This document shows, in pieces, positions 9,704 through 57,650 of a DNA stretch of 64,000 nt. A program made the translations under genes and the position numbers. The notes under the pieces were generated by a model. That model saw nothing but the letters and a program-made list of their open reading frames with translations, was not told the origin of the DNA and did not search any database. How positions within the stretch are numbered: position 1 is the first letter of the stretch; each line of letters opens with the position of its first letter. Source of the stretch: Aureibaculum luteum. GTDB lineage: Bacteria; Bacteroidota; Bacteroidia; Flavobacteriales; Flavobacteriaceae. The stretch is taken from the NCBI RefSeq assembly GCF_003449015.1, contig NZ_QRGD01000003.1, forward strand, positions 186,001 through 250,000, given 5' to 3'.

Positions 9704-9762
9704 TTAGTGTAAAGACATTTTTTAGTAAAAAAAATATTAAACTGATTCAATACTTATTTCAA

Positions 9763-12786: not shown

Positions 12787-12842
12787 GCTATTTTTATATG
12801 ATATAAAATTACGAAATGAAAACAATAGTTAAGAATTTCAAA

Positions 12843-14171: not shown

Positions 14172-14174
14172 ATT

Positions 14175-16531: not shown

Positions 16532-16535
16532 ATAA

Positions 16536-18374: not shown

Positions 18375-18393
18375 AGGTTGGTTGTGGTTAACT

Positions 18394-41334: not shown

Positions 41335-41344
41335 TAATCATCAC

Positions 41345-42499
41345 ATGAAAATCAACTTTAAAATCACCGTATTCCTACTCCTATTTATGGTTTCAGCAAT
41401 TGGTTGCGAAAAAAAAGAAGAAGTAGAAGAAGTAGAAGAACAAGTTAATGAAGAATCATTAACATTAAAAAGTGCCTTTGCAGACGACTTTTTTATTGGG
41501 TCTGCCGTAAATGATAATCATATTAACGGAAAAGACACGCTGGCTTTACAATTAATTGGAAAAGAGTTTAATACACTTACACCAGAAAACATTATGAAAT
41601 GGATGAATATTCATCCTGAAGAAAATACTTTTAATTATGATATGTCTGATCAATATGTGGCTTTGGGTGAAAAAAACAACATGCATATCGTTGGCCATAC
41701 TTTAGTTTGGCATAGCCAACTAGCTCCGTATATAAATACGATAAGTGACAGTGCTACAATGGCTGACAACCTTAAGAGTCATATTAACACAATAGTTGGT
41801 AAATACAAAGGAAGAATACATAGTTGGGATGTTGTAAATGAAGCCTTAAATGAAGATGGTACCTTACGAGAATCTATTTTCTTAAAAGTAATGGGTAACG
41901 ATTATATTAACTATGCTTTTCAACTTGCGGCTCTGGCAGATCCAGCAGCGGAACTAAATTATAATGACTATAACCTTTGGAAACCTGAAAAAAGAGCAGG
42001 TGTAGTTCAACTCGTGAAAGACTTACAAGCAAAAGGTACAAAGATAGATGGCGTTGGCATGCAAGCACATTGGAGTTTAGAAGGCCCATCAATAGAAGAT
42101 ATTGAAAACAGTATTCTTGCCTATTCAGATTTAGGTGTAAAGGTGATGTTCACGGAATTAGATGTAACCGTATTGCCAAATCCATGGGATTTAAACGGAG
42201 CGGCAGTGGAACAAAATTATGATAAGTTTGAAGGAGATCCTACGATGAACCCTTATCCGAATACATTACCTGATTCAATACAAAACAAACTAGCTAAACG
42301 ATATGAAGACATTTTTAACTTATTTTTAAAACATAAAGATAAAATAAGTAGGGTAACTTTCTGGGGAGTACATGATGGTCAATCTTGGCTCAATGACTGG
42401 CCTATAAAAGGAAGAACAAATCACCCGCTTTTATTTGACAGAAAATTGAATCCAAAAAAAGCGTATCAACAAATAATAGGGCTTAAAAAACAAAACTAA
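41345..42499 (+). CDS. GH10 endo-beta-1,4-xylanase lipoprotein
   Basis: Start taken at the ATG at 41345, which gives a lipoprotein signal with lipobox SAIGC (Cys21). An in-frame extension back to 41213 lies inside the GH3 gene. The mature protein begins with an acidic Glu-rich linker (KKEEVEEVEEQ). The GH10 barrel shows GHTLVWHSQ (117-125), the acid/base WDVVNEALNE (Glu166), NYNDYN and the nucleophile MFTELDVTVLP (Glu271). It acts on xylan, perhaps also on mixed beta-glucans, at the outer membrane. It starts the xylan-directed half of this transcript, followed 15 bases later by a GPH transporter. Confidence 0.95.
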   Translation: MKINFKITVFLLLFMVSAIGCEKKEEVEEVEEQVNEESLTLKSAFADDFFIGSAVNDNHINGKDTLALQLIGKEFNTLTPENIMKWMNIHPEENTFNYDMSDQYVALGEKNNMHIVGHTLVWHSQLAPYINTISDSATMADNLKSHINTIVGKYKGRIHSWDVVNEALNEDGTLRESIFLKVMGNDYINYAFQLAALADPAAELNYNDYNLWKPEKRAGVVQLVKDLQAKGTKIDGVGMQAHWSLEGPSIEDIENSILAYSDLGVKVMFTELDVTVLPNPWDLNGAAVEQNYDKFEGDPTMNPYPNTLPDSIQNKLAKRYEDIFNLFLKHKDKISRVTFWGVHDGQSWLNDWPIKGRTNHPLLFDRKLNPKKAYQQIIGLKKQN

Positions 42500-42514
42500 T
42501 CAACACATAAAATT

Positions 42515-43969
42515 ATGAGTTCTATTTCACAAAAATTATCCATAAAAGAAAAAATAGGCTATAGCTTAGGTGACCTTGCCGCAAACTTGGTTTTTCAAAC
42601 GCTAATGACTTACCTCGCCTATTTTTATACCGATATTTATGGGCTTGAAACAAATCATGCCTCGGCTATTATTCTAACAGTAGGTTTGGTTGCCGCTTTC
42701 GGTTTTAATCCAATTATAGGAGCACTTGCAGATAGAACAACCTCTAAATGGGGAAAATTTAGACCTTGGATATTATGGACAGCTGTACCACTCGGAGTTG
42801 CTGCCCTTTTAGCATTTAGCACGCCTGATTTTGAGTATAAGGGGAAGGTTATTTACGCTGCAGCAACCTATTCTCTTTTATTATTACTCTATGCTGCTAA
42901 CAACTTACCCTACTCTGCTTTAAGTGGTGTAATTACTGGTGATATGGGAGAGCGAAATAGCTTATCATCATATCGATTTGTAGCCGTAATGTTCGCTCAA
43001 TTTTTTGTGCAAGTATTTATGCTACCTATCATTGAAACAGCTGGTGGTGGTGACAAAGCCGTTGGTATTGAAATTGTAATGACTTGGCTAGCTATTATTG
43101 GTACTATTATGCTCATCATAACTTTTTTAACAACAAAGGAACGTGTAATACCTAAACCTGAACAAAAATCGAGCTTAAAAGAAGATATTGGTGATTTAAC
43201 CAAAAATAAACCATGGATTATCATGTTGGTTTTAACAACATTAATTTTTATTACACTCGCTATGAAAGGTGGTTCATACGTTTATTATTTTAAAAATTAT
43301 GTTGATGCCAATGAGCTAACCACTTTCATTAGTCCCATTTTAGATTTCTTATCTAATATCGGAATTAACTTCTTTGGAGAAGACCCGGTTTCTGCTGGTT
43401 TTGGTTTGTTTAATGCTGGTGGAATTATTTTTATGATTGTTGGTATCGGTTTATCCAAAAAATTAGCAGATAAATATGGCAAAAGAGATGTTTTTAAAGT
43501 GTTCTTATTTATATCAACACTTTTTATTATTTTCTTTTATTTTTTCTCCTCAAAATCAGTGGAGTTAATGTTTATCTCACAAATATTCCATGGTTTTTTC
43601 TATGGAATTACAATTCCGTTACTATGGGCAATGATCGCAGATGTTGCTGATTATTCTGAATGGAAAACCAATAGAAGAGCTACAGCCATAATTTTCTCCG
43701 CCATGATGGTTGGTTTAAAAGGTGGACTAAGTATTGGTAGTGCATTATTAACATGGATTTTAGGTCTTTATGGCTATGTTACAAAAGAATTAGCTACTGC
43801 TGGCGAAGCTATTATACAACCTGATAGTGCCATACAAGGGACTAAAATGCTCGTAAGTATTTACCCTGCAATTCCATTCTTATTAGGAGTTGTGTTGTTG
43901 TTTTTTTATGAAATAAATAAAAAAATGGAAACACAAATAGAATCAGAATTAAACGAAAGAAGAAATTAA
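42515..43969 (+). CDS. GPH-family sugar:cation symporter (xylo-oligosaccharide)
   Basis: 484 residues, 12 membrane segments. LSIKEKIGYSLGDLAANLVFQ at the start and [20 protein letters not shown] (72-91) are the GPH family signatures. An extra-membrane loop is present around residues 268-303 (NELTTFISPILDFLSNIGINF), between segments 7 and 8. Placed between GH10 and an intracellular GH43, it resembles XynB/XynD-type xylobiose/xylo-oligosaccharide importers. Compared with the first GPH protein it lacks the large insertion after segment 5, so the two are distinct paralogues rather than a tandem duplication. Confidence 0.9.
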   Translation: MSSISQKLSIKEKIGYSLGDLAANLVFQTLMTYLAYFYTDIYGLETNHASAIILTVGLVAAFGFNPIIGALADRTTSKWGKFRPWILWTAVPLGVAALLAFSTPDFEYKGKVIYAAATYSLLLLLYAANNLPYSALSGVITGDMGERNSLSSYRFVAVMFAQFFVQVFMLPIIETAGGGDKAVGIEIVMTWLAIIGTIMLIITFLTTKERVIPKPEQKSSLKEDIGDLTKNKPWIIMLVLTTLIFITLAMKGGSYVYYFKNYVDANELTTFISPILDFLSNIGINFFGEDPVSAGFGLFNAGGIIFMIVGIGLSKKLADKYGKRDVFKVFLFISTLFIIFFYFFSSKSVELMFISQIFHGFFYGITIPLLWAMIADVADYSEWKTNRRATAIIFSAMMVGLKGGLSIGSALLTWILGLYGYVTKELATAGEAIIQPDSAIQGTKMLVSIYPAIPFLLGVVLLFFYEINKKMETQIESELNERRN

Positions 43970-43980
43970 AATTTAAAATT

Positions 43981-45018
43981 ATGCCAGAAGAAAGTATAGA
44001 ACATATCGATTTTGATGCTTTAAACAAAAAAGCGATCTCTCAGCCCCTAGTCTCACATATTTATACGGCTGATCCATCGGCACATTATTTTAATGGGAAA
44101 ATTTATATATACCCTTCACATGATGTTGATGCCGGAGAAGCCTTTGATGATCTTGGAAGTCATTTCGCCATGGAAGACTATCATGTAATTTCAATGGACA
44201 GTATTGACAGTAAAGCTATAGACAATGGCATCGCCTTACATGTAAATGATGTACCATGGGCAGAAAAACAAATGTGGGCTCCTGATGCTAATGAAAAGGA
44301 TGGTACTTATTATTTATTTTTTCCAGCGAAAGCCTATGATGGCATATTTCGTATTGGTGTAGCTACAAGTTCATCACCTACTGGTCCATTTACGGCTCAA
44401 CCTAAAGCTATTAAAGGGAGTTTTTCCATTGACCCTGCTGTTTTTAAAGATGATGACGGAAGCTGTTATATGTATTTTGGAGGCCTTTGGGGCGGACAAT
44501 TACAGCGATGGAGAACTGGAACATTTAATGCTGCGGAACCTGATAGTCCCACTGCCTTTCTTCCTAATGATAATGAACTTGCATTATTACCCTATGTTGC
44601 TAAAATGACAGATGACTTATTGGAATTTGCAGAAAAACCTAAAACAATAGAAATTGTAGATGAAAAGGGTGCTTTATTATTAGCAGGAGATAACGAGCGT
44701 CGCTTTTTTGAAGCTGCTTGGTTACATAAACATAATGGTAACTATTATTTCTCTTATTCTACCGGTGATACGCATTTTATATGTTATGGAATTGGTGATA
44801 ATCCCTATGGTCCGTTTACGTATAAAGGAAGAATATTAAATCCAGTTGTAGGTTGGACATCGCATCATTCGGTTTGTGAAATTGAAGGAAAAACCTATTT
44901 ATTTTACCATGATTCTTCTTTATCTAAAGGAGTAACACATTTAAGATCGGTAAAAGTTGCTGAAATTACCTATTTGGAAGATGGAACAATTGTAACATTA
45001 GATCCGTATAAAGATTGA
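43981..45018 (+). CDS. Cytoplasmic GH43 beta-xylosidase/arabinofuranosidase
   Basis: 345 residues without signal peptide. The five-bladed propeller shows the general base in YTADPSAHYFNGK (Asp31), MWAPDANEKDGTYYLFF, the pKa-modulating Asp in FSIDPAVFKDDDG (Asp151) and the acid Glu in RRFFEAAWLHKHNG (Glu244), then SHHSVCEIEGKTYLFYHD. The length and single-domain form resemble GH43 subfamily 1. It cleaves imported xylobiose/xylo-oligosaccharides or removes arabinose in the cytoplasm. It lies 11 bases after the GPH transporter, consistent with direct hydrolysis of its cargo. Confidence 0.92.
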   Translation: MPEESIEHIDFDALNKKAISQPLVSHIYTADPSAHYFNGKIYIYPSHDVDAGEAFDDLGSHFAMEDYHVISMDSIDSKAIDNGIALHVNDVPWAEKQMWAPDANEKDGTYYLFFPAKAYDGIFRIGVATSSSPTGPFTAQPKAIKGSFSIDPAVFKDDDGSCYMYFGGLWGGQLQRWRTGTFNAAEPDSPTAFLPNDNELALLPYVAKMTDDLLEFAEKPKTIEIVDEKGALLLAGDNERRFFEAAWLHKHNGNYYFSYSTGDTHFICYGIGDNPYGPFTYKGRILNPVVGWTSHHSVCEIEGKTYLFYHDSSLSKGVTHLRSVKVAEITYLEDGTIVTLDPYKD

Positions 45019-45039
45019 TAAAAACATAAATTTAATTTT

Positions 45040-46746
45040 ATGAGAAAAGTTATACCATTTCTAATCATCGCAATTGCATTGTGGAGTTGTAATACCAAAA
45101 GCAAAGAAAACAATACGACCCTACAAAAAGAAATAGAACAAAGCTATTACAATAATCCAATTTTGGCGGGTTGGTATCCTGACCCTAGCATTACGGATGA
45201 TGGTAAAGGAAATTATTACCTTGTTAATTCTACGTTTTCGTATTTTCCGGGCATCCCTATTTTTCATAGTACGGATCTAGTAAACTGGAAACAAATTGGT
45301 AATGTTTTAGATAGACCTGAACAATTAGAATTGGAGGGTTTAGGAATGTCTAGAGGAATTTTTGCCCCAGATATCAGTTATGATAATGGTATTTTTTATC
45401 TTACCTGTACCGTAGTTGATGGCAAAGGTAATTTTGTAGTAACCGCAGAAAATCCAGCAGGTCCATGGTCTAACCCCACTTACTTACCTGAAGTTAATGG
45501 TATTGACCCTGCCCTATTTTTTGACGATGACAAATCATATATTATTTATAATAGTGATGCTCCTGATAACAAACCATTATATCAAGGTCATCGTACCATT
45601 AGAATGTTTGAATTTGATAAAGAAAATTTAAAAGTAGTTGGTGAAAATAGAATACTAATTAATGGAGGTGTTGACATTTCTAAAAAACCAGTATGGATTG
45701 AAGGCCCAAGAATGTATAAGTTGAATGGTTATTACTATTTAATGGCGGCAGAAGGAGGAACTTCAGTAGACCACTCTGAGGTGATCCTGAGAAATAAAAA
45801 CATCAATGACGAATTTATACCTTATAAAGACAATCCAATACTTACGCAAAGACAATTAGATCCCAATCGAAAAGACCCGATAACATCCGCTGGACATGCT
45901 GATTTAATTCAAACTAAAAAGGGGGAATGGTATGGCGTATTTTTGGCTACAAGAGATTATGGAGACGATCATTACAACACGGGTAGAGAAACCTTTTTAG
46001 CTCCTGTAAAGTGGATTGATGATTGGCCAATCTTTGATTTGGATGGTGAAACTATTAAATATCAATATCCATTACCAAAAGGTGTAAAAATCAACAAAGA
46101 ACTTTTCAACCTCAATGGAAACTTCACTTATACTGAAAATTTTGACAATGATAAATTAGGTTATAATTGGATGTTCTTAAGAACTCCAAAAGATACTTGG
46201 TATAGTCTAGAAGAAAAGATAGGTTATTTAACTATAAACACAAGGCCAGAAACACTATCTGGCATAAAGAATCCGAGTTTTATTGGGCATAGACAGCAAC
46301 ATTTAAAAGGTTCTGCTAGTGTAACGATAGACTTTTCTACTCAGACTCCTAATGAAAGTGCAGGTTTAGTTGCCTTTCAGAACGAAGCACATTTTTACTA
46401 TTTATGTAAATCAATTAAAAATGGCAAACCTGTTGTTGAATTGATAAAAGGCGGTGAAAAAGAGCCGACCGTAATTGCTTCTGTTGATTTACCCGAAACA
46501 ACTTCTACAATCCAATTAAAAATAGAAGCGAATGTAGACACCTATAACTTTTCTTACGCTATAGAAAACGACTGGAAAATCCTTGCAGAAAAGATTGACG
46601 GAAAGTACTTAAGCACTAAAGTAGCGGGTGGTTTTGTTGGAGTTACCTTAGGGATGTATACCACTTCAAATGGAAAAGAAAGCATTAATAAAGCGTATTT
46701 TGATTCTTTTACCTATACTGGCAATGATGCTATCTATGAAAATTAA
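45040..46746 (+). CDS. Exported GH43 beta-xylosidase lipoprotein (two-domain)
   Basis: 568 residues with lipobox ALWSC (Cys17). The catalytic propeller occupies ~35-340: base in AGWYPDPSITDDG (Asp48), GIFAPDISYDNGIFYL, Asp156 in GIDPALFFDDD and the acid Glu in PVWIEGPRMYKLNG (Glu221). The C-terminal ~200 residues are the beta-sandwich typical of long GH43 enzymes (SASVTIDFSTQTPNESAGLVA). It probably acts at the outer membrane or in the periplasm on xylan side chains or xylo-oligomers. It is the last gene of the long +strand unit, followed by a hairpin. Confidence 0.93.
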   Translation: MRKVIPFLIIAIALWSCNTKSKENNTTLQKEIEQSYYNNPILAGWYPDPSITDDGKGNYYLVNSTFSYFPGIPIFHSTDLVNWKQIGNVLDRPEQLELEGLGMSRGIFAPDISYDNGIFYLTCTVVDGKGNFVVTAENPAGPWSNPTYLPEVNGIDPALFFDDDKSYIIYNSDAPDNKPLYQGHRTIRMFEFDKENLKVVGENRILINGGVDISKKPVWIEGPRMYKLNGYYYLMAAEGGTSVDHSEVILRNKNINDEFIPYKDNPILTQRQLDPNRKDPITSAGHADLIQTKKGEWYGVFLATRDYGDDHYNTGRETFLAPVKWIDDWPIFDLDGETIKYQYPLPKGVKINKELFNLNGNFTYTENFDNDKLGYNWMFLRTPKDTWYSLEEKIGYLTINTRPETLSGIKNPSFIGHRQQHLKGSASVTIDFSTQTPNESAGLVAFQNEAHFYYLCKSIKNGKPVVELIKGGEKEPTVIASVDLPETTSTIQLKIEANVDTYNFSYAIENDWKILAEKIDGKYLSTKVAGGFVGVTLGMYTTSNGKESINKAYFDSFTYTGNDAIYEN

Positions 46747-46788: not shown

Positions 46789-46820
46789 AACTCAGACTTT
46801 CGAATCCGTAAGTTTGAGTT
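46789..46820. terminator. Hairpin between convergent GH43 and NHL genes
   Basis: 11-base stem AACTCAGACTT / AAGTTTGAGTT with one G-U pair and a 10-base loop. It overlaps the stop codon of the convergent NHL gene. T-runs are weak on both sides, so termination is likely but not certain. Confidence 0.5.
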
Positions 46821-47757
46821 ACTTGTTTATATCAACAGCATAAATAATTCCTGAGAGCATGTCAGGAACGAGTAATCGTTCGTTATGCTCTTCTAAATAA
46901 AAATCGGCCGCCGATTTTAATCCGTCAATCAACACAGTGGCTTCTTCTGTTTTTCCATTTATTTTCCAAACCTTTCCTTCACTCCAGCTACTCACATAAT
47001 AATTACCTGCACTGTCTTGCTCTATACCATCTGCACCTCTAAACACACCTTTTAAAGGTGCTAATTCACCTCCTTTGTTTACCAACACATTTCCAAGAAA
47101 AAATGATGTAACCATAATATTGTTATTATTATCCAGCCCAACGCCATTTGGATTCAACATAAGAGGAGATGTATCTTGCACTAAAGACACTTTTCCTTGT
47201 AAATCTACATGGTAAACTCGACCTAATTCTGGTACTAACTTTGCCTCATCACTATCTAAAGGCCAAAGGTTGTTCTTTTCATCTCGCATATATTTGGTTG
47301 CTCCCATATCCACCACGTAAAAACCTTTAGCGTCCGCATCAACAGCAACATCATTTAAGTATAATACTTCTTTTGGAAAATCATCTTTTTTTACAAAAAC
47401 ACCCGTTTTTCCATCCTTGTCTACTTTCCAAACGCAATCTAGATCTGAAAAATAGAGGTGTCCCTCTATAAATACAATCCCCTTTGGTTCATCAAATCCT
47501 TTTGCAAATACACGTACTCCCTCTTTTGAAATTTCAACAATCTCACCATCTCCTTTCTCTTTACCATTCATTACAGATACATAATAATTATCATTAAATC
47601 CTTTGGTAATACTTTCAGGTTTTATACCCACTTTAACTGGAAATTTAATATCAGACTCAACATTACATGCTACTAATAAAAACAATAGAAAGAAAAATGA
47701 CAAAAATTCTAGGCTCCCTTTTAATTTTCTTAAAATTTGGATAACTACTTTTTTCAT
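46819..47757 (-). CDS. NHL/SMP-30-like beta-propeller lipoprotein
   Basis: Start taken at 47757, giving a lipoprotein signal with lipobox LLVAC (Cys31); upstream in-frame ATGs add a hydrophobic leader that looks non-coding. The 312-residue product consists of propeller blades of NHL/SGL (gluconolactonase, strictosidine-synthase) type: GFDEPKGIVFIEGHLYFSDLD, YLNDVAVDADAKGFYVVDMG, LMLNPNGVGLDNNNNIMVTS and RGADGIEQDSAGNYYVSSW. Metal-binding residues of a true lactonase cannot be confirmed. It ends the minus-strand unit; the ThuA stop is about 120 bases upstream. A role in lactone hydrolysis or ligand binding is possible. Confidence 0.72.
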   Translation of the reverse strand: MKKVVIQILRKLKGSLEFLSFFFLLFLLVACNVESDIKFPVKVGIKPESITKGFNDNYYVSVMNGKEKGDGEIVEISKEGVRVFAKGFDEPKGIVFIEGHLYFSDLDCVWKVDKDGKTGVFVKKDDFPKEVLYLNDVAVDADAKGFYVVDMGATKYMRDEKNNLWPLDSDEAKLVPELGRVYHVDLQGKVSLVQDTSPLMLNPNGVGLDNNNNIMVTSFFLGNVLVNKGGELAPLKGVFRGADGIEQDSAGNYYVSSWSEGKVWKINGKTEEATVLIDGLKSAADFYLEEHNERLLVPDMLSGIIYAVDINK

Positions 47758-47880
47758 ATTCATTTGAATAAAATTTAACAAAATTATTATAATACATAAA
47801 CGGATAGACCACTTCAGCACTTTCATTTGGTATAAAATCATTAAAAAAAAGGAACTTTTAAAAAATCATAACAAAATAAT

Positions 47881-48618
47881 TTATTTATTAAGTGTCCAGT
47901 ATATTGCACCAAAAATGTGATTCAAAAAGTTTTTGTCTTTATACGTTTCAGGTTTATGACCTAAAGCAGTGTAAAATGACCTTCCTCCTTCATACTCTTG
48001 ATACCATGAAATAGGATGTTTCTCTCCCATACCTTTTAACGGGATATCATCATAACCCGCAGTAAAATCATAAGAAGCTTCATCAACAGTCAAAAGAATA
48101 TTTAGTTTATCTAAATTCATGTTTTCAAAGTTATACCATTCGTCACTACGAAGCCATTTCTTTGGTAGATGCCAAGTTGCAGGAAAATCATTATTCTCAA
48201 CTTTTACTATTGCTGCTTGTAATTTTGGATGATTTACAAATTTTGCTCCAACAAGACCATCAAACCAAGAATTATTGTTTTCACCATCTGCTGTTCCATG
48301 GATACCAACAAAGCCTCCTCCTCGTTTCATAAATGCTTTTAAAGCAACCATATGCTTTGTCTTCAACGAATCAGCATTAGCGTTCATAAATATTACGACA
48401 TCATGTTCTGGTAATTTCTTTATAAGATCATTTGGCCTTTGTGTCCAATTAAACGTAAACTGATGTTCTTCTGCCATTTCTTCAAAAGCTTGAATAGCAA
48501 CAGGGATAGTATTGTAATGCCAAGTATCATGTTGGGTAAACAATAAAACACTAAACTGATCTTGAGCATTTGTTTTAATCATTGTAAGGACACTTATAAT
48601 TAATAAAAGATACTTCAT
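47881..48618 (-). CDS. ThuA-domain exported protein (second copy)
   Basis: 245 residues from the ATG at 48618, which begins a clean signal peptide (MKYLLLIISVLTMIKTNAQ). The ThuA fold is shown by FSVLLFTQHDTWHYNTIP, HDVVIFMNANADSLK, GFVGIHGTADGENNNSWFDGLVG and EGGRSFYTALGHKPETYKD. It shares the family pattern but not close identity with the copy at 9763-10578. It lies between the TIM-barrel epimerase-like gene (25 bases upstream) and the NHL gene. ThuA proteins elsewhere co-occur with xylose-isomerase-like proteins and oxidoreductases; no oxidoreductase is seen here. Confidence 0.85.
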   Translation of the reverse strand: MKYLLLIISVLTMIKTNAQDQFSVLLFTQHDTWHYNTIPVAIQAFEEMAEEHQFTFNWTQRPNDLIKKLPEHDVVIFMNANADSLKTKHMVALKAFMKRGGGFVGIHGTADGENNNSWFDGLVGAKFVNHPKLQAAIVKVENNDFPATWHLPKKWLRSDEWYNFENMNLDKLNILLTVDEASYDFTAGYDDIPLKGMGEKHPISWYQEYEGGRSFYTALGHKPETYKDKNFLNHIFGAIYWTLNK

Positions 48619-48643
48619 TGTAAAAATTTTTAGAATCAAACGC

Positions 48644-49924
48644 TTATTTTAATAATTCATAATAAATATATTCCCAAGCTAAACTAACACTGAATAAAGG
48701 TGGAAAACTATAATCTTCAACTTCTGACAAGATATATTGAGCTCCAGCTATTTCTTGATAGTTGAAAATATCCTTGAAATCTATTTTACCACTTTCACCT
48801 AATTCTTTATAATCTTTCACATGCCAACTAATAAATCGTTTAGGATAATTTTTAAAATAATCGACAGGATTCACTCCTCCCACTTGCATCCAATATACAT
48901 CTGATTGAAAATAGACATACTCAGGATTGGTGTTTTGAAGAAAATAATCATAAATGGTTACGCCTTCTACCTTTAAAAATTCATCAGCATGATTATGATA
49001 CACAAACTTAAGTCCGTTCTCTTTACAAAGTTTTCCAACTTTATTATAATAATTAGAATACTCTTGAAGTTCTTTGATCGTCTTAATGTCTTTTAATTTA
49101 CTATTTGAGGTAGATAGATATTCAACACCAGCTTTTTTATGGTCTTGTATCGTTTTATTCCACCACGTATTTATTACAGTATCATCATTTTTATCTTCAG
49201 GATCGAAAAAAGTCATAGAACCCAAAAATTTCATACCTGATTTTTCAACCATAGCCTTAAACTGTTTTGGGGTTTGACCGTAAAAACTACCATTTTTATA
49301 TACAAAAGTTTCAACATAGCTATACCCCATTCTACCTAGTTGAATTAAGGTTTCTTCTGGGTTATCAAGCATGTTATCATGTACAGAAACGAGCTGAATA
49401 CCAATGTTTTTGTTTTTAGGATTATTTTTTATGTATCTGGTTTTCCATAAGCTTTGATTCTCATTATCAAACCCTTCTAATATAACATCCGTATAATTTT
49501 GAAAGTTAAAATCAACCCTCATTGTGTTATTACCATTAAGGTCTTTGTCTTGCATCGTCCATTTTTTTTCTGAAGCAAAGATTCCTTTTCCAGTAAAAAA
49601 TACGCCTTGTGTATTATGACCTGCAGCAAAAATAGTATCAGTAAAACTATCATAACCAATAATTTCATGAAGCAAAGGATTATATTGGTTACTACTATCT
49701 TTTTGTAAAACTTTAACTGTGAGAGAATGATTATTGAAATTATTCATACTACTCATTTTTATTTCTGGAAATTTTGCTACACTATCTGTGCTGGGATTTA
49801 CAGCACTTATCCACTGACCAGCGTATTGTCTTAGTCTATCTTTTTGAGAAGATATACTATAGTTTTCTTGAGCAAAACCGACAAAACACATAAAAATTAC
49901 AGCTAAAAATATAACTTTTTTCAT
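48644..49924 (-). CDS. Exported fusion: lipocalin-like domain + xylose-isomerase-like TIM barrel
   Basis: 426 residues, signal peptide MKKVIFLAVIFMCFVGFAQ. Residues ~25-165 form a beta-rich, lipocalin/DUF1579-like domain (LRQYAGQWISAVNP ... TGKGIFASEKKWTMQ). Residues ~172-426 are a sugar-phosphate isomerase/epimerase (AP-endonuclease-2-like) TIM barrel: IGIQLVSVHDNML, YVETF (Glu205), FVYHNHADE (His310, His312), YFQSDVYW (Asp342), SWHVKD (His368) and YILSEVE (Glu401). The metal site therefore looks intact. Exported TIM barrels of this family are linked to keto-sugar handling in other bacteria. The substrate is unknown; it sits between the GH26-like gene and ThuA with gaps of 6 and 25 bases. 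Confidence 0.72.
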   Translation of the reverse strand: MKKVIFLAVIFMCFVGFAQENYSISSQKDRLRQYAGQWISAVNPSTDSVAKFPEIKMSSMNNFNNHSLTVKVLQKDSSNQYNPLLHEIIGYDSFTDTIFAAGHNTQGVFFTGKGIFASEKKWTMQDKDLNGNNTMRVDFNFQNYTDVILEGFDNENQSLWKTRYIKNNPKNKNIGIQLVSVHDNMLDNPEETLIQLGRMGYSYVETFVYKNGSFYGQTPKQFKAMVEKSGMKFLGSMTFFDPEDKNDDTVINTWWNKTIQDHKKAGVEYLSTSNSKLKDIKTIKELQEYSNYYNKVGKLCKENGLKFVYHNHADEFLKVEGVTIYDYFLQNTNPEYVYFQSDVYWMQVGGVNPVDYFKNYPKRFISWHVKDYKELGESGKIDFKDIFNYQEIAGAQYILSEVEDYSFPPLFSVSLAWEYIYYELLK

Positions 49925-49930
49925 CTTTAC

Positions 49931-50920
49931 TTAATTATTATTAAGGTGAATAAATAATGGATTCTCCATTTCCTTTTTATAAGCCTCTAAAACAAATGGA
50001 TTTTTTTCTATACGGGCATCTTTCCAATCATGCCATTGAAAACCACTTTTGTTAGACCAATATATCCAATCCCAATTGATGTAGCAAAATGCTTTTATCC
50101 CTGGATTATCATATAACATCTCGAAATAAGGTTTAAACCATTTATCCCAAGAAGTTTTACCATCTAAAACTCCAACATATCGTGGTGTCGACTCGCCAAT
50201 CATTACTGGTTTTTCATGCATATGAGCTCTATCAAAAAAGTTTTGTAAGCCAATATTTGAAAATTCTTCTGGACTAAAAATATCAATACCCCACCAATCG
50301 ACATATTTGTCTCCGGGATAATATGCCATTAACTTTTCAAGCCCTATAAAGTCAGCCGAACCACCACCAGAACACCAAACCGTAGCCGATTTTATATTCT
50401 TTTCTTTAAATGCTTTAGAAATAGTTATGAAAACTTTTTTAAAACTTTCAGGAGAATATCCATTCCAATCACCCTCAAACTCATACCCTATTCTGGTAAA
50501 GGATGGTCTGTCTATATCCAAAAGCAATTTATAGAATGCTTGTAATTGTTTGTCATATTTTCCATCAGCTACTTCTTTATCTAAGCCTGCCCCAGTATCA
50601 TTACCACCAGTAAAACCTAAACCAATTTGAGGCATAATCCCTTTGGGCAAACTATCTAAAACATGTTTTAAATCTTTTCCCCAAGATTCAATCTTTTTCA
50701 CTGGTGCGGTTATATTAACATAAGTCATATATATTGCAGGCATCTTATTTTGCCCAACGGCATTTACATAATCTTGAAAGCCATTTTTATCCTGACCAGC
50801 ACCGTGATAAACTCCTGTTTCTGGTTCGTATTTAGCATTATAATTAAAACGAGGGATTACCTCTTGGCTAAATCCATTTTGCAAAAACAACAACAGAATA
50901 ATTAAACTTACTTTACGCAT
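49931..50920 (-). CDS. Divergent GH26-like / clan GH-A glycoside hydrolase
   Basis: Start taken at 50920, giving signal peptide MRKVSLIILLLFLQNGFSQ; the upstream extension is unlikely. The 329-residue product looks like a (beta/alpha)8 enzyme: VYHGAGQ and FQDYVNAVGQNKMPAIYMTYV at the start, a putative acid/base in FTRIGYEFEGDWNGY (Glu147), YYPGDKYVDWWGIDIF, and a putative nucleophile in KPVMIGESTPRYVG (Glu243). The arrangement recalls GH26, but the His before the acid Glu seen in the mannanases here is replaced by Tyr. A xylan-related specificity is inferred from the GH10 neighbour. No family can be assigned with certainty. Confidence 0.6.
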   Translation of the reverse strand: MRKVSLIILLLFLQNGFSQEVIPRFNYNAKYEPETGVYHGAGQDKNGFQDYVNAVGQNKMPAIYMTYVNITAPVKKIESWGKDLKHVLDSLPKGIMPQIGLGFTGGNDTGAGLDKEVADGKYDKQLQAFYKLLLDIDRPSFTRIGYEFEGDWNGYSPESFKKVFITISKAFKEKNIKSATVWCSGGGSADFIGLEKLMAYYPGDKYVDWWGIDIFSPEEFSNIGLQNFFDRAHMHEKPVMIGESTPRYVGVLDGKTSWDKWFKPYFEMLYDNPGIKAFCYINWDWIYWSNKSGFQWHDWKDARIEKNPFVLEAYKKEMENPLFIHLNNN

Positions 50921-51065
50921 AACTAATAAACTTTTAGTTTTATATTTTTTTTTAAAATATGTTTTCATTACTATTTGAAAACCAACATTTCACTGATACT
51001 AATTTGCATTTACATATAGATAATTTATGAGCTTTTTACACACTAGGTTACAGATTACTATTTAT

Positions 51066-51477
51066 CTAAATTCTTAATTTCAAATAATTCTTTTCTACTA
51101 CGTTTTTAAAATCGTTTTTTAACTGCTGGGTAAATTGGCTATCAATATTCGCCTTAGTCGCAATAATTAAAGTATTCGTAGACGCCACAGTATTTGAAAT
51201 AGTATACTCATGATTTAAAAAACCACATAGATCTCTAACAATTTCTTCTTTAGCTACATTTAATATTGCTGCATTACCAGTAAATGAAATTGAATTTAGG
51301 GTGTTTTCATAGGTATTCAGTGACGCTTTATTTTCTATCTTTTGATACTATCAGCCAAAGGTCATAGCGATTATCACTATATCTTTTTAAACTTAAAAAC
51401 GCACAAAGAAATATCAATAAACTTCTTACTGAATTTGTGCTATTAATTATATTTAAATGTCCGTTAGTTATTTTCCT
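51066..51477 (-). pseudogene. Frameshifted and truncated gene remnant, family unknown
   Basis: The gap between GH10 and the GH26-like gene holds two overlapping open frames without a usable ATG. The upstream one (51328-51477, with SLLIFLCAFLSLKRYSDN and YDLWLIVSKDRK) ends in TAA. The downstream one, shifted by one base (51066-51347), opens after TGA-TAG and runs 93 codons (IENKASLNTYENTLNSI; EEIVRDLCGFLNHEYTIS; NVVEKNYLKLRI). Joining them in the A-rich stretch near 51330-51345 would restore one frame of about 130 residues. The 5' end runs into the GH10 gene, so the original N-terminus is lost. I do not recognise the family. Confidence 0.6.
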
Positions 51478-52555
51478 TTAGGCCTTCTAAAAATCCAAAG
51501 TAAGCAGGTTTTTCCTTTAAATTTTCATCATATATACACGGCCAATCGTTCAAATTAAAGAACCCATTAATCCATGTATCTCTATCTGTAAAATCCCAAA
51601 AAGTAATTCCGTACTGTTGTTCTTTAGGCACAATTTTACGATACATTTTGGCGAGGTTCTTATATTTTTCTGCTTGAGCTTCTTTCATTTCGTCAGTCAA
51701 TTCATCATATAATTGAACTCCTCCTAATCTAGAATCGTCATGTGTATTAAAAATAATATCTACTTCTGATAAATGTATTTGCAAACCCGTAGCTGCCGCT
51801 TTTTTTAAGGCATCTGCTATTGTTTCATCAGGAATATCCATTCGAATGTGCATTTGAAATCCAATTCCAGAAATAGGAACTCCCTGTGCTTTTAATTCTT
51901 CAACCATGCGAAGTGTTCCATTTAATTTAGCAGTGTCGCGTTCAATATTAAAATCATTATAGAATAATACAGCATCAGGATCTGCTTCATGAGCATATGT
52001 AAAGGCCTTCGCAATATAATCTTTACCCATCGCTTTATACCAGATTGTTTCTCTATAGGCTCCACCTTTCGTTTCTAAACCTTCGTTAACCACATCCCAT
52101 CCATGTACTTTACCCTTATATCTACCCACATATTTATGAATATATTCTTTCATAAATTCAGCTAACCACAAACTGTCTTTCTCTGCCTTTTCTATCACCC
52201 ATTTAGGTGTAGAACTGTGCCAAATTAAATTGTGCCCAAAAAGTCGTTGCTTATTTTTTTCTGCATAATTTAAAATACTATCAATTCTAGACCATTGATA
52301 CGCTCCCTCTTTTGGAAGAATTTGCTGCATTTTCATATCACTAGTTGCCGTGATACTATTAAAATTTGCCTTTTCTAACACTTGTAGTTCTGAATCAGAT
52401 AGTAACGTTGTGATACGAACAGCGGTACCAATTGGAAAATTTGCGACATCTTTCAAACCTGTTTGTGACGGTTCAGACTGCTTACAACTTGTTATGAGTA
52501 ACAAAATAATGGACAACTTTAAAACTAAATTATATTCTTTTTTTAAAATCATCAT
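51464..52555 (-). CDS. GH10 endo-beta-1,4-xylanase lipoprotein (xylan PUL)
   Basis: 363 residues with lipobox LITSC (Cys24). The GH10 barrel is complete: FPIGTAVRI, GHNLIWHSSTPKW (107-119), acid/base in WDVVNEGLE (Glu158), FYNDFNIE and nucleophile in IHLSEVDI (Glu264), with FWDFTDRDTWI near the end. It is clearly different from the GH10 at 41345-42499, so the locus has two xylanases. It begins one base after the stop of the FG-GAP lipoprotein gene and is presumably on the same transcript. Surface or periplasmic cleavage of xylan is expected. Confidence 0.95.
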   Translation of the reverse strand: MMILKKEYNLVLKLSIILLLITSCKQSEPSQTGLKDVANFPIGTAVRITTLLSDSELQVLEKANFNSITATSDMKMQQILPKEGAYQWSRIDSILNYAEKNKQRLFGHNLIWHSSTPKWVIEKAEKDSLWLAEFMKEYIHKYVGRYKGKVHGWDVVNEGLETKGGAYRETIWYKAMGKDYIAKAFTYAHEADPDAVLFYNDFNIERDTAKLNGTLRMVEELKAQGVPISGIGFQMHIRMDIPDETIADALKKAAATGLQIHLSEVDIIFNTHDDSRLGGVQLYDELTDEMKEAQAEKYKNLAKMYRKIVPKEQQYGITFWDFTDRDTWINGFFNLNDWPCIYDENLKEKPAYFGFLEGLKENN

Positions 52556-52556
52556 T

Positions 52557-55500
52557 TTACTTATTTTGCTTTACATACTGCACATAGTCATCATTTTTTA
52601 CCGAAATAATGTAATTATCACCTTTCACTTTAATTGTTTGGATGTCTTTTACATCTCCAGGCATAAAAAAGCCACTTTCAGAGGCTGGAATAGCTTCAAA
52701 TGCCCCTTTGTTATTTCCTTTTAAGTACAAGCCGTAACTTGCATCGTTACGCGGTGTTTCTACTTCAGACATGTGAAGATTACCCGCTAATAAAACATCT
52801 AATGCCCCATCCTTATCAAAATCGTCAATTAAAACTTTATTAACACTTGACACTTGAGCTTCTACTGGAAGTTGGTGAATTACAAATTTGTCTCCTTGAT
52901 TTTCAAGATAAATACTGGCAAAAGATTTTACTTGATAATGTAAAGAAGCATTTAATGCTTGCTCTGAATAGATGTCGACCAAGGTGGCTTCGGAAAATGT
53001 TTCGTAATTTTCGAATTTCTTTTTTATTGATGGTATTTGCTGTGAAGAGCATCCACGGCCTCTTACGGGATATTGTTTTCCTCCATTATAATAACTTAGT
53101 ACAATATCACTTTTATTATTTTTATCAAAATCATTAACAAAAATATCAAAGGTTTCATTTTCATTAGCTTTGTATTTATAATTTAAGCCATTATTACCTA
53201 GGATATAATCCATATCACCATCATTATCAAAATCACCTTGATTGATACTCCACCACCAACCCGTGGTGTCTACAGTGAGCCCAAGCTCTTCAGAAACATC
53301 ACTAAATCCGGTTTTTGTATTTTTAAATACTCGAATTGGCATCCACTCTCCAACAACGATGATGTCTAACATCTTATCATTATTGTAATCTGTAATAACA
53401 GCACTCGTGGCCATACCCAAATCAGTAAATTCTTTTGGCATCATTTCAGTAAACACATCGAACTTTGCAATTCCATTTTTACTATTATTCTTCAGTAAAT
53501 AACTACTTGCAGGTAACGGATAGTTACCAGGAGTTTGACGCCCCAAAACCAATACATCTTCCTTACCATCACCATCAAAATCTGCATGATATACTTTAGA
53601 ACCACTGGTAATCATTTTAGGCAACGCCCCTTCATTTGCTTTGGTAAAATTTCCTTTTCCATCATTTAAATACAATCTGTCCTGTAGATTTTTTGAATCA
53701 GCTTTATACTCATATCCTCCACTGACTACATACAAATCATTATCACCATCTCCATCAGCATCAAAAATTGTAGCCCCAAGATCTTCACTATTCTCATCGA
53801 AATCAAGAGTCGATGCTTCAAATCCATTTTCATTTTGTAAGAAAATAGCTCCTTTTTTACCTTTAGAAGCACCAATGTAATAATCTTCTAAGTTGTCATT
53901 GTTCAAATCGCCTACAGCTAGAGCAGGACCAAAAGTTGACATTTTATGTGGTAATAGTACTTGGGTTTCAAAATCGTCATTGATATTCTCTTCATGTTTA
54001 TAAGATGGAAATAGATTGCTATTGTCCGTCATAAATAATTTATCACTAGTTGCAACTTCTACCTTTTCTTCGGATGCATCACTATGTTTTAGAACTATTG
54101 TTTTGTTGATGGTTGGATTCGTTACAACTTGTACTTTACCATCTGTCCAAACTACTTTTAACTCATCAATTTTTTCTACTTTACCGATTCCAAAATGTAA
54201 TTCTGGAGCTACTGAAGATTGAAATCCTCTCGACAACGTCAGTTCTTGCAGTTGTGTGTTATCTCCAGTTTTCAGATACACTCTGTTCCCAATTCCCAAT
54301 TTATTTTTAGAATCATCTTGAAATTTTACAGTAATATAATTATTAGCATTGGCATTATTATTCTTAAATAGTGAAGCATTATCATCTATATTATTTGTAA
54401 CTATTTCTAAATCGCCATCATTATCTAAATCGGCATATACAACACCATTTGAAAAGCCTTTAAATTCTATACCCCAATCTTTATTGGTTCTTTCGAATTT
54501 CATATCTCCAGTATTCTTAAACATAAAATTGTCTATTTTTTCTGAAGGAATTTCTAAACTCAGTTTTAGCATGGTATCTTGTTCTACTTTTACCTTTTTT
54601 AGCTTGTTGAAGTAATCATTATTATTGATTTCTCTCCTTGTTCCATTAGAAATGAATAAATCTTTGAATCCATCGTTATCAAAATCAGCAAATAGAGGGC
54701 CCCAACTCCAGTCTGTAGAAGAAACCCCTGCTAGTCTTGATATATTTGAAAAGTAAGGCACACCATCGTTAAAAACACCTGAATTTACCTGAAGACAATT
54801 TTGCATATACTGATAATGAAAACCAGCATTAACCACATCCCAAAATAATTCAGGGTTCATACTTGCCATATTCGCTTTTTGCCTTTTATTACTATTAGCA
54901 TCCATATCGTTTTGGAAAATATCAAGATTTCCATCATTATTAAAATCAGCTATGTCAGACCCCATACCATAAAATGCAGTATGAGCAGTGGCCTCTTTTA
55001 ACACTTCTTTAAAAGTACCATCTTGTTGATTTAGATACATAAAATCTGGTGAATTAAAATCTTGTGAAACATATAGATCTGGCCAACCATCATTATTTAA
55101 ATCGCCTACTGTAGCACTTAAGGTAAGTCCAAAAGCTTTTAAACCTGAAGCTTCGGTTACGTTAGTGAATGTATCTCCATCATTTCTATATAAGTGATTC
55201 GATTCAACGTCTTCAACGTTATTCATTTTATATTTATAAACGAAAGTTGGAGAAGTAAATAAGGTTGGAGGGTAATTGGCTACATATAAATCTAAATCGC
55301 CATCTCTATCATAATCTAAGAAAGTAGCTTGTACACCATTCCCTATATCATCTAATTTATAGGCTTCAGCCATTTCTGTGAAAGTGCCGTCTTGATTATT
55401 TATAAATAATTGATTGTTTTTAGGAGTAAATTTACCACCAACAGAGCAATAAATATCTAAGAAACCATCGCCATTGATATCTCCCATGGTTACACCTGTA

Positions 55501-55862
55501 TACCACCGCTCATCTCCAGATACACCGGCCTTTTCTGTAATGTCTTCAAATTTTAAATCTCCCTTGTTCAAATACAATTTGTTCGAGACTTGATTACCCG
55601 TAAAAAAAACATCTATGAGACCATCATTATTGATATCTCCGGCAGCAACACCACCACCCATATACAAATAAGAATAGGAAAAATAATTTAAAGAATCATT
55701 TTCAGTCAAATTGTTGGCAAAGTTTATTCCAGTATCAGATTCACTTAAACTGGTAAACATTTTTTCTTGGCTTATCTTCTCTGATTCAGTACAATTTAAT
55801 AATAATAATAATAATAACAGAACACCAAAGAAACTTACGAATATTTTAATTTTATTAATCAT
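52557..55862 (-). CDS. Large FG-GAP/VCBS repeat lipoprotein with UnbV/ASPIC domain
   Basis: Start taken at 55862: MINKIKIFVSFFG followed by a Leu run and lipobox LLLNC (Cys24). The 1101-residue product is built of FG-GAP/VCBS blades with calcium-binding DxDxDG-type turns throughout (GDINNDGLID, GDINGDGFLD, DYDRDGDLD, DFDNDGFKD, DADGDGDND). A UnbV/ASPIC-like segment near residues 530-610 (LQELTLSRGFQSSVAPELHFG) separates two propellers. This resembles CRTAC1-type proteins. No catalytic motif is visible. It stands directly after SusCD (terminator between) and just before GH10, where a surface glycan-binding protein is expected, so xylan binding at the cell surface is a reasonable but untested role. 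Confidence 0.82.
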   Translation of the reverse strand: MINKIKIFVSFFGVLLLLLLLLNCTESEKISQEKMFTSLSESDTGINFANNLTENDSLNYFSYSYLYMGGGVAAGDINNDGLIDVFFTGNQVSNKLYLNKGDLKFEDITEKAGVSGDERWYTGVTMGDINGDGFLDIYCSVGGKFTPKNNQLFINNQDGTFTEMAEAYKLDDIGNGVQATFLDYDRDGDLDLYVANYPPTLFTSPTFVYKYKMNNVEDVESNHLYRNDGDTFTNVTEASGLKAFGLTLSATVGDLNNDGWPDLYVSQDFNSPDFMYLNQQDGTFKEVLKEATAHTAFYGMGSDIADFNNDGNLDIFQNDMDANSNKRQKANMASMNPELFWDVVNAGFHYQYMQNCLQVNSGVFNDGVPYFSNISRLAGVSSTDWSWGPLFADFDNDGFKDLFISNGTRREINNNDYFNKLKKVKVEQDTMLKLSLEIPSEKIDNFMFKNTGDMKFERTNKDWGIEFKGFSNGVVYADLDNDGDLEIVTNNIDDNASLFKNNNANANNYITVKFQDDSKNKLGIGNRVYLKTGDNTQLQELTLSRGFQSSVAPELHFGIGKVEKIDELKVVWTDGKVQVVTNPTINKTIVLKHSDASEEKVEVATSDKLFMTDNSNLFPSYKHEENINDDFETQVLLPHKMSTFGPALAVGDLNNDNLEDYYIGASKGKKGAIFLQNENGFEASTLDFDENSEDLGATIFDADGDGDNDLYVVSGGYEYKADSKNLQDRLYLNDGKGNFTKANEGALPKMITSGSKVYHADFDGDGKEDVLVLGRQTPGNYPLPASSYLLKNNSKNGIAKFDVFTEMMPKEFTDLGMATSAVITDYNNDKMLDIIVVGEWMPIRVFKNTKTGFSDVSEELGLTVDTTGWWWSINQGDFDNDGDMDYILGNNGLNYKYKANENETFDIFVNDFDKNNKSDIVLSYYNGGKQYPVRGRGCSSQQIPSIKKKFENYETFSEATLVDIYSEQALNASLHYQVKSFASIYLENQGDKFVIHQLPVEAQVSSVNKVLIDDFDKDGALDVLLAGNLHMSEVETPRNDASYGLYLKGNNKGAFEAIPASESGFFMPGDVKDIQTIKVKGDNYIISVKNDDYVQYVKQNK

Positions 55863-56165
55863 TTTAACAATTATAAATATTATACTTTTTTTGAATTTAT
55901 TTTGCATTAAAGATAATTAATGTAGCTTTATTATGAGCTAAAAAAGCATCCTTTTTTGCTGATATTACAGTAATTTAGATTAACTATAATTAGTTGTTTA
56001 ATCAATAACTATTTTTTTAAATCCAACGTAAATTATTGATTTAATTATTATTCGAATTTTATAGTAACACCAGGTCATTTATTTTACCACAATAAACAAA
56101 AACAGCGTATTAAAATTTAATACGCTGTTTTCAAACTAACTCAATTACTATATTATTTTTTAATA
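55863..56165. other. Intergenic region SusD / FG-GAP lipoprotein
   Basis: 303 bases without a gene. It contains the terminator at 56099-56131. An A6/T6 hairpin (55936-55945 with 55952-55960) lies in the presumed leader of the FG-GAP gene. A promoter for the downstream genes would be expected here but I cannot pick one. Confidence 0.5.
56099..56131 (-). terminator. Strong terminator after SusC/SusD of the xylan PUL
   Basis: Near-perfect hairpin AACAGCGTATTAAA / TTTAATACGCTGTT; on the minus strand it is followed by TTTTTGTTTATT. It lies about 35 bases after the SusD stop and should separate SusCD from the downstream enzyme genes. Confidence 0.85.
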
Positions 56166-57650
56166 TTAATAACCAGGATTTTGATCGGCAGATGTAATGC
56201 TCTCATTTGAACTAATCTCTGCATCTGGTATTGGCATTAGCTCATGTTTACCCGCTTGAAAATTGGTTCCAGCTAGTTCAGTAGATGCATTACCCCATCT
56301 AACAATATCATTAAAACGTACCTGCTCACCTGCCAACTCTACTTTACGTTCATGTACTATAGCAGTAAAAACCTGATCTTTAGTTAACGTTGTTGCTAAC
56401 CCTGTTAAACCGGCTCTTAGCCTTACTCTATTAATATAACCCACTGCATCTGATTGTGTTCCCACTTCATTTTCACACTCAGCCATCATTAATAAAACAT
56501 CTGCATATCTAAGATATTTAAAGTTTATACCAGAAGTTTGATCTTCAGAAGCATCTTTATAATAATTTTGATACTTTTTCCAACCTGCTCTACGAACATC
56601 TGTTCCAACAGTTAAATTTGATGTAGTAATTGTAAGTGCTCCTTCTGCGTAAGAATCACCCACAGAGTAAAAAGTGTCACCAAATCTAGTATCACCAGCC
56701 TCATATTCATCTAACAAATCATCAGAAGGATACACGTTAAACCAATTTAAACATCCGTATTCTTGACCTCTAAAAGTAGCTTCATTTGGACCTGCACCAG
56801 AAGCGTCAGAATTCCATTGTGCAGAAAACCCTAAATCATCATCATATTCAATTTCAAAAATAGACTCAATTCCATGCTCAGTTTCTTCCTTAAAATTATC
56901 AAAGAAGTTTGCCTCCAATGCATAACCTGACAATTTATTAAATTCAGCTAATGCCAAAGCATGCTCACCTCTATATAAATATACTTTACCTAATAATGCT
57001 GTAGCAGCCCCTTTATTAGCTCTTCCATTATCTTCAACTCCTTTATCACGTAATGTGGTTTGGGCATCTTTTAAATCGTCTATTATTTGCTGATACACTA
57101 AATCTGCTGAACTTTTCGGAAAGCCCACTGGAGCTTCTGGAATTACCGTAATCAAAGGAACATCACCATATCTAACAACTAACCAAAAATAATACAGTCC
57201 TCTTAAGAATTTGGCTTCACCCATAAATTTTGCTTTGGTAGTGGTACTCATTAAAGTTTCTGGTATGGCATCTATCGCTTCTTTATTTTCTATTACAAAA
57301 TTTGCCTTGTTAACACCTCTAAAACAGCTATCCCAAAAGGCCTTATTAAGACCGTGACTAGAATCAAAAGAAAAATCTAGATATTGCTTTTTATCTGCTT
57401 CTAATTGTGGATTACCCGCATTTTCATGTGACATATTATCGGAAGAAAAAAACATTCCTCTAGAATACATACCATGCGTTTGAAAGTTTGCATAGGCTGC
57501 ATTTACTGCAGACTGAACCTGTGCCTCATTCTTAAAGAATGTGTCAGGAGACAATTGATTTGGATTTGTTAACTCCAAATCTTTTTCACTACATGCATTT
57601 ACAAGCAATAGCATAGTGAAAATTGTAAAGATTATTTTATATTTTTTCAT
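56166..57650 (-). CDS. SusD-family glycan-binding lipoprotein (xylan PUL)
   Basis: 494 residues with lipobox LLVNAC (Cys20). SusD/RagB landmarks: FFKNEAQVQSAVNAAYANFQ, GEAKFLRGLYYFWLVVRYGDVPL, NKGAATALLGKVYLYRGE, and C-terminal HERKVELAGEQVRFNDIVRWG and a PIPDAEI end typical of the family. It partners the SusC protein encoded 18 bases upstream and would bind the incoming oligosaccharide at the outer surface. Xylan specificity is inferred from the GH10 genes downstream. The following terminator suggests SusCD is the most abundant part of the transcript. Confidence 0.95.
   Translation of the reverse strand: MKKYKIIFTIFTMLLLVNACSEKDLELTNPNQLSPDTFFKNEAQVQSAVNAAYANFQTHGMYSRGMFFSSDNMSHENAGNPQLEADKKQYLDFSFDSSHGLNKAFWDSCFRGVNKANFVIENKEAIDAIPETLMSTTTKAKFMGEAKFLRGLYYFWLVVRYGDVPLITVIPEAPVGFPKSSADLVYQQIIDDLKDAQTTLRDKGVEDNGRANKGAATALLGKVYLYRGEHALALAEFNKLSGYALEANFFDNFKEETEHGIESIFEIEYDDDLGFSAQWNSDASGAGPNEATFRGQEYGCLNWFNVYPSDDLLDEYEAGDTRFGDTFYSVGDSYAEGALTITTSNLTVGTDVRRAGWKKYQNYYKDASEDQTSGINFKYLRYADVLLMMAECENEVGTQSDAVGYINRVRLRAGLTGLATTLTKDQVFTAIVHERKVELAGEQVRFNDIVRWGNASTELAGTNFQAGKHELMPIPDAEISSNESITSADQNPGY

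Follow-up and report, generated by a model that had tools for sequence, protein, structure and literature searches.

A predicted exported TIM-barrel fusion of 3-keto-glycoside-lyase type beside ThuA and a propeller in a xylan gene region of Aureibaculum luteum

The flavobacterium Aureibaculum luteum carries, on contig NZ_QRGD01000003.1 (assembly GCF_003449015.1), four neighboring genes that are the subject of this analysis. They encode an SMP-30-like propeller, a ThuA-family protein, a two-domain protein joining a beta domain to a TIM barrel (below, the fusion) and a GH26 enzyme. The window is the whole 64,000-nucleotide stretch from position 186,001 to 250,000 of this contig, and coordinates without a prefix refer to it. 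A preliminary description had seen in the four genes an unexplained exported module of a xylan locus, which might process an oxidised sugar; our results partly support this interpretation. The four genes are:

46819..47841, minus strand: SMP-30/gluconolactonase-like propeller with a lipoprotein-type N-terminus (Pfam SGL; true start probably later)
47881..48639, minus strand: ThuA-family protein, predicted exported (Pfam ThuA; likely start ATG near 48618)
48644..49924, minus strand: predicted exported fusion of an N-terminal beta domain and a C-terminal TIM barrel of 3-keto-glycoside 1,2-lyase type
49931..50968, minus strand: GH26, by homology a mixed-linkage xylanase of AlXyn26A type (likely start 50920)

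These open reading frames (ORFs) stand in tandem with spacings, as listed, of 39, 4 and 6 bases, so that a single transcript is likely. The ORFs and their families were confirmed, and a hydrophobic export-type stretch was recognized by eye at the N-terminus of all four proteins, as the preliminary description had proposed. For the GH26, ThuA and SGL ORFs, translation probably begins downstream of the listed start, since internal Met codons yield ordinary signal peptides; the end of the row had earlier been placed at 50920, which fits the likely GH26 start.

The fusion comprises an N-terminal beta domain (residues ~25-168) and a TIM barrel (~171-426), and contains a match to Pfam AP_endonuc_2 (E 6.9e-9). 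In a sequence search of the PDB, residues 171-420 matched entries 8tct, 8tcd and 8tcs with E-values from 1.7e-64 to 2.9e-58. A structure predicted from a 62-row alignment reached a predicted local distance difference test score (pLDDT) of 94.2 and a predicted template modelling score of 0.90, compared with a pLDDT of 43.6 for a single-sequence attempt; in this model the strands of the beta domain would span 36-166 and the barrel 174-424. Its best PDB fold matches are AL1 (8TCD, 8TCR) and BT1 (8TCT), named 3-keto-beta-glucopyranoside-1,2-lyases in the PDB titles (Z 37.0-37.4, root-mean-square deviation 1.2-1.3, 254-255 residues, 42-44% identity). Next come two uncharacterised Parabacteroides proteins (Z 34.2 and 32.4), then Art22 and IolE (~23-24) and the O-glycoside beta-eliminase AtOGE (8BVK; 22.0), while ketose epimerases show 11-15% identity and Z of ~21-22. 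Judged by sequence and predicted fold, the TIM barrel is closest to the 3-keto-glycoside lyases, which favors the 3-keto-sugar idea of the preliminary description. The beta domain, which the preliminary description took for a lipocalin, gave no usable profile match among PDB sequences (the best, to a phage capsid protein, had E 0.045) and nothing consistent when 22 members were searched against Pfam; the fold search used the whole fusion model, and its result list was filled by TIM barrels. G001, another genome, encodes the domain as a separate ORF of 164 residues, with a hybrid regulator and xylan genes as neighbors (L039:9673-10167).

According to the available account of AtOGE, which acts on 3-keto-flavonoid glucosides, H132, D163, H189 and, weakly, E233 are metal ligands, with H134 as the base; the H134A variant shows no activity, and that of H189A is <0.1% (PMC10628242). 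Mapped by the offsets of aligned ranges, H132, D163, H189, E233 and H134 correspond to H310, D342, H368, E401 and H312 of the fusion. These five residues, and likewise E205, N311 and E315, are invariant in 62 of 62 alignment rows (40 fusions and 22 relatives with the TIM barrel only), an invariance that for H310, N311, H312 and E315 is partly built in, HNHADEF being one of the two scan patterns; 20 of the 22 TIM-only rows were collected without this pattern. AtOGE shares ~25% identity with the fusion and has no extra domain. AL1 and BT1 resemble the fusion in fold and in metal and base residues, whereas the fusion has an added N-terminal beta domain of no known family, Met237 in place of His, and ThuA and a propeller as neighbors instead of Gfo/Idh/MocA and a 3-keto-disaccharide hydrolase.

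A pattern scan of a collection of species genomes returned 56 loci, 38 of which hold the fusion, on 37 contigs; being derived from exact-peptide patterns, the 38 are a lower bound biased to those motifs. Two of the loci, L073 and L075, are copies that share a contig, and six loci with short flanks (L063, L084, L085, L093, L094 and L096) were retained. The genera include Flavobacterium, Algibacter, Zobellia, Maribacter, Labilibaculum, Gilvimarinus, Colwellia and Psychrosphaera; we take the hosts to be mostly Bacteroidota, with the last three belonging to the Gammaproteobacteria. In a survey of the family, 96 of 299 genomes matched the protein, only four of them along the whole fusion (A. luteum, G246, G227 and G075).

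The fusion has a recurrent neighborhood. ThuA follows it at 23 of the 38 loci, in 22 cases as the next gene, in the same orientation and no more than 281 bases away; at the 23rd, L073, a ThuA fragment comes after the fusion and the whole gene lies 2 kb further on, while L079, with only a distant fragment, was left out of the count. Near TIM-only relatives we found no ThuA within 1.5 kb at 26 loci, and none up to 10 kb at ten loci of an overlapping set (eight are longer views of eight of the 26; L034 and L038 extend less than 10 kb). SGL-type propellers, which fall into two families, occur as ORFs at 15 fusion loci, or 16 if L091, with a hidden Markov model (HMM) match only, is included; all are ThuA-positive. 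Fisher tests on co-occurrence used the 16 and took related loci as independent. GH10 lies near 22 of the 38 fusion loci and none of the ten TIM-only controls. GH26 was found at six, every time directly upstream of the fusion, and the exact row GH26-fusion-ThuA-propeller occurs at L061, L069 and L074 in addition to the window; at L031 and L070, from one genome, GH16 occupies the slot after ThuA. The preliminary description had taken a lack of conserved co-occurrence across genomes as a refutation of its idea, and this outcome did not arise: the fusion-ThuA pair, often with the propeller, recurs across genera, whereas GH26 joins it at few loci.

Fusions form one clade (40 rows; support of 100 in the SH-like approximate likelihood ratio test) in a quick, midpoint-rooted tree that gave long-branch warnings and included the N-domain columns. 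Two clades have ThuA, one of Zobellia and Maribacter and the xylan clade, and those that separate them on the tree lack it: the pairing may either be ancestral with losses or have been acquired twice. A protein of ~134 residues, of exported type and without a Pfam match (L062:13831-14232), occurs at ten of the 38 fusion loci, all ThuA-positive, and also at L053:4459-4860. Its copies are 68-95% identical to that of L062, and a search run without a positive control gave no match in the A. luteum genome.

The ThuA protein of the window matches Pfam PF06283 over profile positions 2-209 of 209 (E 3.6e-60, above the curated cut-off). ThuA is tied to 3-keto chemistry by association only. In L161, and likewise in Streptomyces oceani L103, a locus that also carries a TIM relative, it is fused to a 3-keto-disaccharide hydrolase, and a 1115-residue protein of A. 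luteum itself (L179:9376-12723) joins ThuA to glucose/sorbosone dehydrogenase (GSDH), PKD, cytochrome c and CBM6 domains. The ThuA/ThuB 3-keto-disaccharide pathway of rhizobia and Agrobacterium, as far as available sources describe it, likewise sets ThuA beside sugar-oxidation chemistry; unlike there, the window ThuA has no adjoining ThuB-type oxidoreductase, appears exported and lies next to a lyase-like fusion. Among related systems for which accounts are available, PF06439, the family of the 3-keto-disaccharide hydrolases, is said to take in the 3-ketotrehalose hydrolase BT2157, a putative 3'-ketolactose hydrolase and an endo-xanthanase/lichenase (PMC9007349), and BT2158 is described as a periplasmic glycoside 3-dehydrogenase (PMC11300592). 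A thuAB-like pair of Paenibacillus JDR-2 was interpreted as making 3-keto-maltose, the available text drawing no tie to xylan (PMC4765114). Our literature searches returned no paper joining ThuA, polysaccharide utilization loci and xylan, and our claim of novelty extends to these searches.

The propeller has a lipobox-like LVAC motif, matches Pfam SGL above the cut-off (E 2.9e-7) and is 23-25% identical to clear SGL homologues. Within the metal-binding set of the SMP-30/gluconolactonase family, which we take to be E, N, N, D, the residues N163, N232 and D271 align with these homologues, but the glutamate does not. Elsewhere in the window (8162-10578, plus strand), behind CE2, SASA and GH1 genes, an exported PD40-type propeller (8162-9703) is directly followed by a second ThuA gene (9763-10578).

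The GH26 ORF falls below the curated Pfam GH26 cut-off (E 0.0022) and gives an alignment of 328 residues with AlXyn26A (7XJR) that scores 710 bits; by eye, some nine-tenths of the residues are identical, the position of E243 is kept, and we saw no relevant difference between the two. AlXyn26A, from Algibacter sp. L4_22, is reported to cleave a beta-1,4 bond when a beta-1,3 bond precedes it (PMC12706835), and its substrate, Palmaria mixed-linkage xylan, is described in the available text as a xylose homopolymer (PMC13351767). From this homology we identify the window GH26 as a mixed-linkage xylanase of AlXyn26A type, ordinary for this kind of locus, and the earlier statement that none of the four genes performs a textbook step of xylan breakdown was wrong. 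GH26 belongs to the ordinary xylan pathway and accompanies the fusion at no more than 6 of 38 loci, which means that the four genes do not make up a fixed module. Among 397 genomes of the family, GH26 matches at E <=1e-30 were found in five: A. luteum, G335 (87%), whose gene order GH26-fusion-ThuA is that of the window, and three at 33-39%.

The surrounding features are:

51069..51317, minus strand: remnant of a GH67 (alpha-glucuronidase) N-terminal domain, between GH10 and GH26
51464..52555, minus strand: GH10 xylanase
52557..55907, minus strand: FG-GAP / ASPIC-UnbV protein
56166..57650, minus strand: SusD-family protein
57669..60683, minus strand: SusC-type TonB-dependent transporter (matches to Plug and CarbopepD_reg_2; none to the barrel model at E 0.001)
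61182..63806, minus strand: hybrid two-component regulator (Reg_prop, Y_Y_Y, HisKA, receiver, HTH_18)
39115..46746, plus strand: convergent xylan genes (GH3, GH10, a major facilitator superfamily transporter and two GH43)

A SusC/SusD pair, a regulator and glycoside hydrolases are present together, as in a polysaccharide utilisation locus. The GH67 remnant has a 95% identical counterpart at L061:8657-8905, and a full-length GH67 lies at L071:13111-15282. Separate from the xylan genes, a minus-strand group at 10651-19548 (GH9, an ORF without a Pfam match at 12843-14171, a GlcNAc 2-epimerase family gene, GH130, a sodium:solute symporter and GH26) looks like a mannan locus.

The chemistry of a 3-keto-sugar route could be started by an oxidoreductase. 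Profile searches made genome-wide gave no GFO_IDH_MocA or GMC_oxred_C match within the window (C22:186001-250000), so the earlier remark that no dehydrogenase is visible there holds for these families, and the gap is filled at the genome level only. The genome has 18 GFO_IDH_MocA matches (17 over the cut-off), nine to PF06439 and two to GMC_oxred_C. They include, on C1, a row of a Gfo of twin-arginine translocation (Tat) type, a TIM gene, PF06439, Gluconate_2-dh3 and GMC; additional genes of the Gfo and PF06439 families are on C30 and C40, their N-termini being, as judged by eye, Tat-like or of lipoprotein type. Such exported-type clusters make possible an oxidation of the sugar in trans, by an enzyme encoded elsewhere, and we infer that it may occur. 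A local Gfo/Idh/MocA partner as a general rule was rejected, at 3 of 38 loci. At L082 (Colwellia, with GH10 nearby), a row of Gfo/Idh/MocA without a signal, an aldo/keto reductase and the fusion is accompanied by a divergent Tat-type Gfo/Idh/MocA; the L083 copy lies 7.6 kb from the fusion and has no clear signal. The L062 copy has its best A. luteum match, 43% identical, at C22:71481. The clearest case is L100, itself a near TIM-only relative: its row runs from a Tat-type Gfo/Idh/MocA through a 3-keto-disaccharide hydrolase to the TIM gene. For the Gfo HMM, 20 plus-strand stretches were used. That of PF06439, which gave no match at the 38 fusion loci, came from eight of the nine A. luteum loci (L140 left out; L137 and L141 are one ORF). 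Whole-genome counts of PF01408 in 35 of 37 records (without L073 and L079) are uninformative on proximity.

The explanation that we favor, at slightly better than even chances, is that the fusion, ThuA and the propeller form a re-specialised, exported module of 3-keto-glycoside-lyase type, often serving xylan, whose activity is predicted from homology and the structural model; as part of the same explanation, the region would be a polysaccharide utilisation locus for algal mixed-linkage (beta-1,3/1,4) xylan. GH26 and GH10 would cut the xylan chain, SusC/D would import the products, and GH43 and GH3 would complete hydrolysis. The fusion, ThuA and propeller would add a second branch, oxidative and located in the cell envelope. 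There, C3 of the terminal sugar would be oxidised by an exported 3-oxidoreductase whose gene lies at another place in the genome, the divalent metal of the TIM barrel (H310, D342, H368, E401) would bind the 3-keto group, and H312 would take the C2 proton, the glycosidic bond being broken by beta-elimination. ThuA and the propeller might then process the keto-glycal or a lactone derived from it. The substrate may be a xylosyl unit or a minor substituent; a cut by elimination would be independent of linkage type and would suit a mixed-linkage chain.

Several observations weigh against this explanation, in addition to the partly built-in invariance mentioned above. The locus is already equipped with xylan hydrolases, and several fusion loci lie outside any evident xylan locus. 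Gfo/Idh/MocA genes within 10 kb of the fusion were found at only three of the 38 loci (L062, L082 and L083), the copy of L062, a xylan locus with GH26, has by eye no export signal, and no GMC or Gluconate_2-dh3 match was found over the same distance. ThuA does not adjoin the fusion at 15 loci, and SGL-type propellers also occur near TIM-only genes (4 of 26, and 3 of 10 in the overlapping set). Most sampled ThuA loci lack a link to 3-keto chemistry: among 30 from the family, a TIM lyase within 1.5 kb was found at none, Gfo at two and PF06439 at two, and the ThuA family as such is therefore not tied to this chemistry. Finally, residue 237 is Met in 40 of 40 fusions and His in 22 of 22 TIM-only rows and in 8tct and 8tcd; Met346 is likewise confined to fusions, and a comparison with the five nearest TIM-only rows shows further differences at positions 206-208, 239, 273-274 and 293. 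To judge from these positions, the sugar pocket is rebuilt and the reaction perhaps too, so that the substrate or reaction may differ from that of the lyases. Since these pocket positions have changed, we regard the fusion as a variant rather than as a member of the lyases.

The same His-to-Met change in all 40 fusions would suit an epimerase, isomerase or hydratase whose substrate is a 3-keto or ketose sugar and whose metal site is the same, and the beta domain would then serve as a lid or binding module; the fold is indeed common to ketose 3-epimerases and to the 3-keto-D-glucoside 4-epimerase YcjR. We consider this unlikely, as the similarity to lyases (42-44% identity, Z 37) lies far above that to ketose epimerases (11-15%, Z ~21-22) and the metal and base set of the eliminase is intact. 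It is quite improbable, in our view, that fusion and ThuA have a general envelope role, such as repair or salvage of oxidised sugars, and came into xylan loci by chance or hitch-hiking: 16 of the 38 fusion loci lack GH10 within 10 kb and several stand in no evident polysaccharide locus, yet the association with GH10 at the other 22 extends to loci of other families (L076, L077, L079 and L096) and is absent from the ten controls.

Another alternative concerns the target. A GH67 remnant lies just upstream of the row in the window and at L061, and GH88, the unsaturated uronyl hydrolase family, is encoded near the fusion in Zobellia amurskyensis (L093:12578-13765) and in a Cytophagales metagenome-assembled genome (L084:8084-9292). 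The module might then remove a xylan substituent such as a glucuronic-acid side group, and not act on the backbone, in replacement of a lost alpha-glucuronidase. We give this little credence: L071 holds a full GH67 together with fusion, ThuA and propeller, and Palmaria mixed-linkage xylan is, in the available description, the homopolymer mentioned above (PMC13351767).

Returning to the lyase-type module, a bolder form of this explanation is rather doubtful. Marine bacteria would have a dedicated, envelope-located and linkage-blind branch that acts on mixed-linkage xylan: oxidation at C3 in trans would be followed by elimination through a lyase with a rebuilt pocket, fused to a beta domain without a known family, and ThuA, as a hydratase or isomerase replacing the 3-keto-disaccharide hydrolase, would act with the propeller. 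If this is true, marine xylan breakdown would include a redox-elimination route beside hydrolysis, and a chemistry known from glucosides would be extended to an algal pentosan. For ThuA, found joined to 3-keto-sugar enzymes in several genomes, this would provide a function that can be tested, and the redox-elimination route could be recognized by the fusion.

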